Positions 3,556 to 64,000 of a stretch of 64,000 nucleotides of DNA are shown one piece after another. Source of the DNA: Vicinamibacterales bacterium (lineage in GTDB: Bacteria > Acidobacteriota > Vicinamibacteria > Vicinamibacterales > JAMQPK01); assembly GCA_023717525.1 (NCBI GenBank), contig JAMQPK010000099.1:1-64000 (forward strand), in the 5' to 3' direction. The position numbers and the translations under genes are program-made. Every line of letters starts with the position of its first letter. Position 1 is the first letter of the stretch. The notes below the pieces were generated by a model. The model had not been told where the DNA came from and made no database searches. It worked only from the letters and a program-made list of their open reading frames with translations.

Positions 3556-3996
3556 ATGAGGGGCGAGAAGATCTATGAGTACGATCTCGATGTTACGGGA
3601 GTGACAGACTACGGCGTTACGTTGGAGTCTGTTCTTTCGGGCCAGGAAAGAGTCCCGCCGCAGGGGGTTCGCATCGACGTCGCCTTTGAGGGCCGTGCTG
3701 TAGGCCGGTTGGCTGGGCGAGTGCGGGACATCGACTATCTCCGGATGCGCGCCGACGGCCGCATCGACCTTGATATTCGCGCAGTCGTTGAAACTGAGAA
3801 CGGTCGCAGGATTGCGCTGTCTGCCGACGGCGTGGCGATGCCGCGCATGGCTGAGCCGATCGCCGACCTTTTTGAGAACGTCAGCCTCAGCACGGCGGCC
3901 GAGGAATACGTCTGGGTCAACACGCGACAGGTGTGGGGGGTTGGGACTGTGAATCTTGCTGTCGGCAAGATTCACATCGACGGATACATGCAGTGA
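3556..3996 (+). CDS. DUF3237-like protein
   Basis: ORF with ...EEYVWVNTRQVWGVGTVNLAVGKIHIDGYMQ ending. Confidence 0.6.
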   Translation: MRGEKIYEYDLDVTGVTDYGVTLESVLSGQERVPPQGVRIDVAFEGRAVGRLAGRVRDIDYLRMRADGRIDLDIRAVVETENGRRIALSADGVAMPRMAEPIADLFENVSLSTAAEEYVWVNTRQVWGVGTVNLAVGKIHIDGYMQ

Positions 3997-60126: not shown

Positions 60127-61101
60127 CTATGGGATCAGTACAATCTTGCCGTACGCGCCGGCCTTCATGACTTCCACGTGCGCGCGAGACGCTTCGGCGA
60201 GCGGCAGCTCCTTCCCAACCTCGGGCTTGAATCCGCTGCGCTCCATGCCCGCGATGATCGCCGCGTGAGCAGTGGCAAATTCCTTCGGCGTCGCGTTCCA
60301 GTTCGTCAAGCCGGTGACGACCGCATCTTTCGACATGATGGCGCGCGGGTTCAGTTCGATGGATCCCCGGTTGCCGACAATCACGACGCGGCCCCGCACG
60401 GCAATCATTTCGAGATCGCGAACCAGGTTCACGTTCGCAAGCATTTCGATGACGAGGTCGATTCCCTTGCCATCCGTCTTCGCCGTGATCTGCTTTTGAT
60501 AGTCCGCGGCGGCATGATCGAACACTTCGTGAGCCCCCTGCCCCGCCGCGAGCGCTCTACCGCGATCGGTTCCGGCGGTGCCGAAGACGCGTAGCCCTGC
60601 CGCGCGCGCCATCTGGACGGCGGCGATGCCGACGGCACCACTCGCACCGTGAATCAGCACCGTCTCGCCCGGCTGTGCCCGCCCTTTGTCGAAAAGCGCT
60701 CGCCAGGCCGTGACGTACGGCACGTTCAGACCCGCGCCCTGCGCGAACGAGATCGGGTCCGGCAGCCGATGCACCTGCTCGGGCAGGCATAACGCTGCCT
60801 CTGCGTACGCACCGACTGCACGGCCGTCGACCGTGCCGCCAAAATAGACGCGGTCGCCCTTCACGAAATCTCGCACGCCTGCACCGACCGCATCGACGAC
60901 TCCGGCGCCGTCGATGCCCGGTGTGTACGGCAGCGACGGGAGGACCGCATAAACGCCGCTGCGAATGTAAGTGTCAACCGGGTTGACGCCGGCCGCTTTC
61001 ACGCTCACGAGCACTTGTCCCTGCCCGGGAGCGCTTCCTGAAATGTCTTCCAGCTTCATCACCGAAGGGTCGCCGAACTGGTGGACACGAATCGCTTTCA
61101 T
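60127..61101 (-). CDS. NADPH:quinone reductase-like zinc-independent MDR oxidoreductase
   Basis: MKAIRVHQFGDPSVMKLEDI; AAGVNPVDTYIRSG; VLIHGASGAVGIAAVQMARAAGLRVFGTAGT. Confidence 0.9.
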   Translation of the reverse strand: MKAIRVHQFGDPSVMKLEDISGSAPGQGQVLVSVKAAGVNPVDTYIRSGVYAVLPSLPYTPGIDGAGVVDAVGAGVRDFVKGDRVYFGGTVDGRAVGAYAEAALCLPEQVHRLPDPISFAQGAGLNVPYVTAWRALFDKGRAQPGETVLIHGASGAVGIAAVQMARAAGLRVFGTAGTDRGRALAAGQGAHEVFDHAAADYQKQITAKTDGKGIDLVIEMLANVNLVRDLEMIAVRGRVVIVGNRGSIELNPRAIMSKDAVVTGLTNWNATPKEFATAHAAIIAGMERSGFKPEVGKELPLAEASRAHVEVMKAGAYGKIVLIP

Positions 61102-61112
61102 GGCCAGTGAGT

Positions 61113-61140
61113 TTGACACTATTTGGGACCGTGCTGTAGT
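61113..61140 (+). promoter_or_regulatory. Candidate sigma-70 promoter for his leader
   Basis: TTGACA (61113-61118), 16-bp spacer, TGTAGT (61135-61140), 11 nt before the leader ATG. Confidence 0.5.
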
Positions 61141-61151
61141 CTAAACAGCTC

Positions 61152-61226
61152 ATGGCCTTCACTCGGAGTCATCTCCACCACGTCCATCATCACCGCCACG
61201 CGGCGGGCGAGCGGAGCTCCGGATAA
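61152..61226 (+). CDS. hisL: His operon leader peptide, 24 aa (not in ORF track)
   Basis: MAFTRSHLHHVHHHRHAAGERSSG: 7 His codons among 10 consecutive codons, directly upstream of an attenuator and hisI. Confidence 0.85.
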   Translation: MAFTRSHLHHVHHHRHAAGERSSG

Positions 61227-61263
61227 GCTGACCATCATCACCATCACATCCGAGCACTGACTG

Positions 61264-61290
61264 CCCCGCCACCGTCCGGCGGGGTTTTTT
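61264..61290 (+). terminator. Rho-independent attenuator terminator
   Basis: CCCCGCC-ACCGTCC-GGCGGGG-TTTTTT. Confidence 0.92.
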
Positions 61291-61304
61291 GTTTCAGGAC
61301 ACTT

Positions 61305-61622
61305 ATGGATTTCACAAAACTCGACGGGCTCGTGCCCGCAGTCGTTCAGGATGCCGAAAGCGGCGAGATCCTGATGGTCGGCTTCATGAACGAGACGGCG
61401 CTCGACGCCACGCGGCAATCCGGTTTCGCCACGTTCTTCAGCCGCTCGCGCCAGAAACTCTGGATGAAGGGCGAGACATCCGGGAACAAACTTGCCGTCC
61501 GGCAGATCCTCGTGGACTGCGATGATGATACGGTGCTGCTGAAGGTGACGAGGCTCGGCGACGGCAACGTGTGCCACACAGGAGAGCGGACCTGTTTTTA
61601 CCGGTCCCTCACAGACCTATGA
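61305..61622 (+). CDS. hisI: Phosphoribosyl-AMP cyclohydrolase
   Basis: [62 protein letters not shown]. Confidence 0.95.
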
Positions 61623-62509
61623 ACAAGCTCAAGCTCGGACTGCCGAAGGGATCTCTCCAGGACTCGACGGTGCAGCTGTTCGCGCGTGCGGGGTTCAACA
61701 TCTACGTCAGCTCGCGATCGTATTTTCCGTCGATCGACGACCCCGACATCGAGTGCATGTTGATTCGTGCGCAGGAAATGGCCCGCTACGTCGCCGACGG
61801 CGTGCTCGATTGCGGCCTTACCGGACAAGACTGGATCGCAGAGCACCAGAGCGGGCTGGCGACGCCGGCCCCGCTCGTGGCGGTGGCCGATCTGATCTAC
61901 TCGAAGCAGAGCTTCGGAAAGGTGCGATGGGTACTGGCGGCCCCGGAGGATTCACGATTCAAGAAGCCTCAGGATCTCGAGGGCGCCACGATCGCGACCG
62001 AGCTCGTTCGAGCAACCAAAGCCTACTTCGATCGCCTGGGCGTGAATGTCAATGTGGAGTTCTCGTGGGGCGCGACTGAAGTGAAGCCGCCGGTGCTCGC
62101 CGATGCCATCGTCGAGGCTACGGAAACCGGTTCGACCCTGCGCGCCAACCGCCTTCGGATTCTCGACACGGTGATGGAGAGCAACACGCAACTGATCGCC
62201 AACCAAGCGGCGATGGCCGACGGTTGGAAGCGGACGAAAATCGACAACATTTCCCTGCTGCTCAGAGCGGCTATCGAAGCCCAGGGACGGGTTGGGCTCA
62301 TGCTGAATGTTCGACGTGAAGACCTGAAGGCGATCCTGGATCTGCTGCCAGCCCTTCAGCGGCCGACGATCTCGCCGCTGAGTGAGGACGACTGGGTTGC
62401 CGTGAACACCATCATCGAGGAACGGACCGTTCGCGATCTCATTCCGAAGTTGAAAGCCTCGCGCGCGCAGGGCATTGTCGAATATCCATTGAACAAGATC
62501 GTGGTCTGA
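61619..62509 (+). CDS. hisG: ATP phosphoribosyltransferase, long form
   Basis: [69 protein letters not shown]. Confidence 0.95.
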
Positions 62510-63744
62510 TGAAGATCATTTCTTCCCGGGATTCGAAGGCGGTCGACCGGCTGCTGCGGCCGGTCAGGGGAAGCGACCGCGCGACGCGCGCGACGGTCGC
62601 CGCAATCGTGTCCGGTGTGAGACGGCGGGGGGACACCGCGCTGCTGCGATATGCACGCACGTTCGACGGCCTCACCGAGCCTCTCGAGGTCTCGCCAGAG
62701 GAAATCGAGGAGGGCGCCGCACGAGTGCCGCCGCGAGTCCGCGCCGCGATTGCCTCGGCGGCCAGGAACATCCGCAAGGTCGCGCGGCGTCAACTTCCAC
62801 GCGGCTGGAAAGTTGCCACCCAGCCGGGCGTCGTCGTTGAACAACGCGTCACTCCCCTCGATCGAGTAGGGTGCTATGTACCAGGGGGCCGGTATCCGCT
62901 TCCATCTTCCCTGCTCATGACGGCCATCCCGGCTCGTGTCGCGGGTGTGTCCGAAGTGATCGTCGCGTGCCCACGACCAGCGCCTGTCGTGATGGCCGCC
63001 GCGCGTGCAGCGGGTGTCACCAGACTGTTTCGCGTCGGTGGTGCGCACGCCATCGCGGCCCTCGCCTACGGCACGAAGCTCGTGCCGCGTGTGGATAAGA
63101 TTGTCGGCCCCGGCAATCGATATGTGGCAGCAGCCAAGGCGCTCGTCGCCGAGGACTGTGCCATCGACTTCTACGCCGGACCCACAGAGATTGTGATTGT
63201 TGCCGACAAGGGCCCTCCGGAGTGGATCGCGGCCGATCTCATCGCGCAGGCCGAACATGACCCCGATGCCCGCGCCATCTTCATCACAACCAGCGGGGCG
63301 CTTGCATCCCGCGTGTCTCGTGCGGTTGATGCCAGGATGCCTGGGTCTGGGCCTGCTCGCGCGGCACTCGCCAGGCACGGCGGAATCATCGTCGTGAAGG
63401 ACGGCGCTGAGGCTGTCGCGCTTGCCAACCGGGCCGCACCGGAACACCTCGTGTGCGAAGACCAGCGGGTTGCGGATGGCGTGCGGTGTGCGGGGGCGAT
63501 ATTCATCGGACGATATAGCGCGCAGGTCGCCGGCGACTACGCCATCGGGTCGAATCATGTCCTGCCGACGAGCGGCGCGGCTCGATTTCGGGGAGGGTTG
63601 CACACGTCGGACTTCGTGCGGATTTCCACCGTTCAGCGGGTGAGCCGTAAAGGCCTCGAGAGCCTTGCGCCCACGGTGACGACGCTCGCGAGGCAAGAGG
63701 GTCTCGAAGCGCACGCGTTGTCGATCGAGGTTCGGCTCCGATGA
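62509..63744 (+). CDS. hisD: Histidinol dehydrogenase
   Basis: VGCYVPGGRYPLPSSLLMTAIPARVAGV; VDKIVGPGNRYVAAAKALV; YAGPTEIVIVAD; GSNHVLPTSGAARFRGGL. Confidence 0.96.
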   Translation: MKIISSRDSKAVDRLLRPVRGSDRATRATVAAIVSGVRRRGDTALLRYARTFDGLTEPLEVSPEEIEEGAARVPPRVRAAIASAARNIRKVARRQLPRGWKVATQPGVVVEQRVTPLDRVGCYVPGGRYPLPSSLLMTAIPARVAGVSEVIVACPRPAPVVMAAARAAGVTRLFRVGGAHAIAALAYGTKLVPRVDKIVGPGNRYVAAAKALVAEDCAIDFYAGPTEIVIVADKGPPEWIAADLIAQAEHDPDARAIFITTSGALASRVSRAVDARMPGSGPARAALARHGGIIVVKDGAEAVALANRAAPEHLVCEDQRVADGVRCAGAIFIGRYSAQVAGDYAIGSNHVLPTSGAARFRGGLHTSDFVRISTVQRVSRKGLESLAPTVTTLARQEGLEAHALSIEVRLR

Positions 63745-64000
63745 CGTACGCGCGTCCGGCCGATCGGATGGGGGCCCTTCGGCTGCACCTCAACGAAAAC
63801 ACTGGCGGCTGCTCGCAGGCCGTCATCGACGCCATTCGCCAGCTGACGGCAGAAGACGTGGCGTACTACCCGGACTATGCGGCACTTACCAGGGAGTGCG
63901 CCGAGTACCTCGGCGTGCGCGAGGGGCAGCTTGTGCTGACCAACGGCCTCGACGAAGGACTATTGGCGGCAACGGTCAGCGCTTTCCGCCTGTTCCGCGG
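63741..64000 (+). CDS. hisC: Histidinol-phosphate aminotransferase, N-terminal part (runs off window)
   Basis: MTYARPADRMGALRLHLNENTGGCSQAVIDAIRQL...YYPDYAALTRECAEYLGVREGQLVLTNGLDEGL; ATGA overlap with hisD. Confidence 0.9.
   Translation, partial: MTYARPADRMGALRLHLNENTGGCSQAVIDAIRQLTAEDVAYYPDYAALTRECAEYLGVREGQLVLTNGLDEGLLAATVSAFRLFR

Follow-up and report, generated by a model that had tools for sequence, protein, structure and literature searches.

A predicted histidine attenuator with a near-leaderless leader peptide upstream of hisI in Acidobacteriota

Described attenuators and the hisI locus

The enterobacterial hisL attenuator comprises a run of His codons in a short open reading frame (ORF) before the first his gene, an intrinsic terminator and an alternative antiterminator, and operates by ribosome stalling. 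Outside Proteobacteria, his leader attenuators have been published in Firmicutes for his operons (PMC9413887) and for hisS (PMC2965389); these carry a short ORF with 3-5 consecutive His codons together with a terminator and an antiterminator. A leaderless leader peptide ORF with a mapped start has been described in the trpL attenuator of Sinorhizobium meliloti (PMC7298713), and leaderless cysteine-rich short ORFs are known from mycobacteria (PMC4633059; also Canestrari 2020, as cited in PMC13236596). Almost no predicted attenuator of Acidobacteria had an assigned function (PMC2965389).

We analyzed a 64-kb stretch of DNA (hereafter, the window) from a genome that its relatives place in Acidobacteriota, order Vicinamibacterales. 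The element studied here is flanked on one side by a divergent zinc-type oxidoreductase gene (60127-61119, reverse strand) and on the other by the genes hisI-hisG-hisD-hisC on the forward strand. The first structural gene is hisI, encoding phosphoribosyl-AMP cyclohydrolase (61305-61622, ATG at 61305), followed by the long form of hisG (61619-62509) and by hisD (62509-63744), all three assigned with NCBIfam and Pfam models. The last gene, hisC (63741-64000), is truncated by the end of the window, and the fragment gives a weak match. A preliminary description had read the intergenic region as a histidine attenuator before hisI, outside the enterobacteria; its leader, CCGCC, GGCGGG, CCCGCC, GGCGGGG and T6 were each found in the place it gave. 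The conservation of the leader ORF, the terminator and the antiterminator upstream of hisI across Acidobacteriota supports that reading. The element is very probably a ribosome-mediated, histidine-sensing transcription attenuator of the hisIGDC... operon, with a near-leaderless leader.

With all the parts of hisL named above, the acidobacterial element is, by its sequence, one that would work like the enterobacterial attenuator yet stands outside the Rfam His_leader family. RF00514, applied at its gathering score, found no match in the window or in 20 relative loci, while E. coli hisL, the positive control, was matched at 131.6 bits. Matches to other Rfam sRNA families (Hrs1, anti-hemB) in the window and the 20 related loci stayed below threshold and were rejected as weak terminator look-alikes. 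The distance from the -10 box to the leader ATG is 38 nt in E. coli (TAGGTT, assigned by eye) and 9 nt here. The E. coli leader ORF stops soon after the His run, whereas here one strand of the antiterminator, region 2, falls within the final codons of the ORF. The first gene is hisG in the enterobacterial his operon and hisI here.

The Firmicutes attenuators are built from similar parts and are likewise found outside Proteobacteria, but they belong to another phylum, have other sequences and are scattered over few genomes, in contrast to the wide distribution seen here. The S. meliloti trpL system is also an amino-acid attenuator, with a transcript that starts directly at the leader ORF; the system responds to tryptophan, in Alphaproteobacteria, and its start is mapped where ours is predicted. 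The mycobacterial ORFs resemble the present leader as near-leaderless, amino-acid-rich short ORFs upstream of an operon, but they are rich in cysteine, whereas here histidine is combined with a clear intrinsic terminator. A search of the open literature on Acidobacteria leader peptides and his attenuation, with subscription journals outside its scope, returned no description of the element.

The leader ORF and its promoter

The leader ORF (MAFTRSHLHHVHHHRHAAGERSSG, 61152-61226, forward strand) contains eight His codons and ends in TAA. It has no Shine-Dalgarno sequence and a predicted 5' untranslated region of 0-4 nt. With seven His in 12 codons, it is the richest His cluster of the window in any frame. 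Searches anchored on hisG yielded 110 loci, and the comparison was made on 96 non-redundant hisI upstream regions. A His-rich leader, meaning a short ORF in which four or more of nine codons specify His, is present in 89 of the 96 and absent from seven; dinucleotide shuffles gave a mean of 0.9 and a maximum of 2, and the reverse strand gave 3. The loci span Vicinamibacteria, Bryobacterales and other Terriglobia, and one Thermoanaerobaculia genome. Among 19 further upstream regions fetched once the pattern had been fixed, 17 have the leader. The phylum-wide hisI search is not equivalent to a census, and hisI is internal to the operon in many families. In some families where hisI is not the first gene, His leaders occur before hisG or nearby (L112, L121, L123).

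A putative promoter precedes the leader. Its -35 box, TTGACA (61113-61118), agrees with the consensus at six of six positions, and its -10 box, TAGTCT (61137-61142), lies beyond a spacer of 18 nt and is separated from the leader ATG by 9 nt. The -10 box conforms only to the pattern TANNNT; a scan with the strict sigma-70 consensus did not report the promoter because TAGTCT matches TATAAT at only three of six positions. A TANNNT motif about 10-12 bp before the start codon is a mark of leaderless bacterial genes (PMC3160421). Taking as leader start the nearest in-frame ATG before the His run, picked without reference to promoters, we found TANNNT 7-11 nt upstream in 68 of 78 loci (mean 3.9 and maximum 11 in 200 rounds of shuffling). 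In 32 of 78 relatives a TANNNT box is preceded, at 16-19 nt, by TTGACA (at least 5/6); shuffles gave 0.08. Motifs resembling a Shine-Dalgarno sequence are not enriched before the leaders (4/82 loci, 5.7 in shuffles). In the later set, TANNNT precedes a start by 6-10 nt in all 17 leaders, with several start codons allowed in that comparison. The position of TANNNT and the lack of Shine-Dalgarno enrichment together suggest that the leader mRNA is near-leaderless, and the position of the promoter predicts that transcription starts 0-4 nt before the leader AUG. The preliminary description named the class of attenuator well but had overlooked the promoter; a near-leaderless leader sets the element apart from the enterobacterial one.

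It is unlikely, though worth weighing, that the attenuator is real but has an ordinary leadered transcript, with transcription starting upstream of TTGACA/TAGTCT or with the true start codon elsewhere. The weakness of the -10 box by consensus would fit such an arrangement, as would the few relatives that have alternative starts or lack the TANNNT box (10/78). Against it stand the concentration of TANNNT at 8-11 nt before start codons chosen blind to promoters, a pattern that held in the later loci, and the same lack of Shine-Dalgarno enrichment.

The strict promoter pattern has four occurrences in this genome and none in the control. The other three (G000:C13:32080, G000:C105:36560 and G000:C234:17079) show the TTGACA/TANNNT layout 7-11 nt before the ATG of ORFs of 136-313 codons, which encode a TetR-like regulator, a 136-aa protein and a membrane protein. 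Leaderless mRNAs are probably in ordinary use in this genome.

Terminator, antiterminator and the proposed switch

The leader is followed by an intrinsic terminator (61263-61290, forward strand), which was recovered by folding and by an independent scan. Its stem (61263-61285, GCCCCGCC / GGCGGGGT) has eight pairs, seven of them G-C, and leads into a T6 run (61285-61290); the 3' partner GGCGGGG (61278-61284) pairs with the CCCGCC stretch of region 3. When a stem energy of at most -7 kcal/mol and a subsequent T4 were required, a terminator was found after the leader in 80 of the 92 loci with a His cluster, compared with 17-22 in shuffles. Alignments of the two main groups of relatives show the terminator pairs formed in 96-100% of cells. 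The terminator covaries among relatives: its double-sided pair changes exceed all 500 permutations in both large groups. Those of the antiterminator are only modestly raised.

The same hairpin could in principle control the translation of hisI rather than the termination of transcription, with the ORF and the hairpin masking or exposing the hisI start. The window itself might suggest this, as the hairpin ends just 14 nt before the hisI ATG. We nevertheless regard it as very improbable: most loci have a G+C-rich stem leading into a T run, and the distance from the hairpin to hisI ranges from ~15 to >100 nt in relatives, so that masking of the start cannot be general.

The alternative structure pairs region 2 with region 3. 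Region 2 (61202-61224), in the 3' end of the leader ORF, consists of GGCGGG (61202-61207) and an inner part, GCGGAGCTCCGGAT (about 61210-61224). Region 3 (61247-61270) consists of an inner part, ATCCGAGCACTGAC, and CCCGCC (61265-61270). The antiterminator is therefore longer than first described, the outer helix joining 61202-61207 with 61265-61270 and an inner helix joining about 61210-61224 with 61247-61262. Pairing between the 5' arm of the terminator and the stretch after the His codons beats shuffles of that stretch at p<0.05 in 40 of 79 loci. The combined Fisher value for 2:3 pairing against dinucleotide shuffles, 2.5e-35, ignores relatedness and is thus an upper bound on the evidence. 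When the register is fixed, the fraction of paired cells in the two main groups is 0.75 (reached by 0/500 permutations) and 0.67 (3/500), whereas slid registers give 0.26-0.49. For the double-sided changes in the antiterminator, 12 and 2 of 500 permutations reach the observed number.

In 76 of 77 loci the start of region 2 falls within the leader ORF; the median distances are 8 nt from the final His codon and 23 nt to the end of the stop codon. This predicted attenuator, with region 2 inside the leader ORF, is widespread in Acidobacteriota. Most Vicinamibacterales share one reading frame for the region 2 motif GGCGGAGTTGCG and its variants; five loci, the window among them (AGCGGAGCTCCG), use a different frame. 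The same motif thus occurs in two frames relative to the leader, and what is conserved is the RNA and not the peptide. His-rich peptides can bind metals and the ORF is conserved, but the idea that it encodes an ordinary small protein (e.g. metal-binding) placed before hisI by chance is very improbable, since only the His codons are kept while the rest of the peptide varies, the 3' part keeps its RNA sequence across different frames, and both the constant position before hisI and the terminator would go unexplained.

In the preliminary description, region 2 could pair either with region 3 or with an upstream region 1, CCGCC (61193-61197). We regard the hairpin of region 1 with 61202-61206 as an optional pre-emptor. 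The two pairings fare differently. The 2:3 pairing is conserved, while pairing of region 2 with upstream sequence is at chance level in the window (p = 0.66) and weakly above it across loci overall (14/79 at p<0.05, Fisher 6e-9). Candidates for a region 1 upstream of the His codons, such as CCGTCGC with GCGACGG in Bryobacterales, are attractive by eye, yet the count of loci below 0.05 remains those 14 of 79. Taken by itself, the window gives a borderline result for 2:3 pairing when compared with shuffles (p = 0.05) and a chance-level one for 1:2 pairing, so the case rests on conservation. Region 2 belongs to the final codons of the leader ORF; a ribosome arriving at the stop would therefore occlude it, and termination would not require the 1:2 hairpin. 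It is probably at most an aid and not essential.

Folding of the window sequence supports switching between the two structures. When no ribosome is present, the two folds differ little in energy (-46.9 and -45.2 kcal/mol). With a ribosome placed on the His codons (folding of 61201-61290), the antiterminator is favored by ~3 kcal/mol (-32.2 against -29.1 kcal/mol for the terminator), and with a ribosome at the stop codon (folding of 61239-61290) the terminator alone forms. The proposal that the 2:3 antiterminator and the terminator exclude each other agrees with both the conserved pairing and these energies. So does the original switch logic insofar as a ribosome on the His codons would favor the antiterminator; its reliance on region 1 was its weakest part.

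We infer the following sequence of events, from stalling to the choice of fold. Translation of the leader ORF would begin on a near-leaderless mRNA that has no Shine-Dalgarno sequence, the transcript starting 0-4 nt before the AUG. When His-tRNA is scarce, the ribosome would stall on the His codons (61170-61199), leaving region 2 (61202-61224) exposed to pair with region 3 (61247-61270), including the 5' arm of the terminator, and RNA polymerase would continue into hisI. With ample His-tRNA, the ribosome would run to the TAA (61224-61226) and cover region 2; region 3 would then pair with 61278-61284, and transcription would stop at the T run. In this way the operon would be regulated by histidine.

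On balance, we favor the broader view that Acidobacteriota commonly control histidine synthesis by such a leaderless-mRNA attenuator, in which region 2 occupies the last codons of the ORF and the position of the ribosome alone decides the fold, with no pre-emptor. This would be a minimal design whose layout has been kept while sequence and frame changed, and it offers a testable simplification of the textbook four-region model. The assignment would give a function to a class of attenuator in a large, poorly studied phylum (cf. PMC2965389) and would add a family absent from Rfam. The ~100 leaders would form a natural series that depends on leaderless initiation working together with transcription-translation coupling and attenuation: the first ribosome must load on an AUG at the extreme 5' end while RNA polymerase is still nearby.

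Additional His runs and tandem leaders

A second run of five in-frame His codons, CATCATCACCATCAC (61233-61247, forward strand), lies past the leader TAA, in the apical loop of the antiterminator. It is in the frame of the leader, 48 nt after 61185, and 14 of 17 bases are the same as in the first run; it is likely a small duplication. The frame of this second run is open through into hisI.

A search of the same genome for other His leaders with the pattern CAYCAYNNNCAYCAYCAY returned this leader alone, plus two non-leader places. A crude scan of nine Vicinamibacterales genomes (L158-L175) found no Trp-rich or branched-chain-rich leaders directly upstream of trpE or ilvB.

One contig among the relatives (L097), in a record titled Bordetella parapertussis, carries a Bryobacterales-like his operon with its leader; the organism name is probably wrong. 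In another locus (L121, positions 3588-3960), two tandem His leaders (MVIATVSRHHHHHHPILGPGTGARAV and VPFHAHHHHHVHFPPG) precede hisG, each with a terminator of its own, in the layout of a double attenuator.
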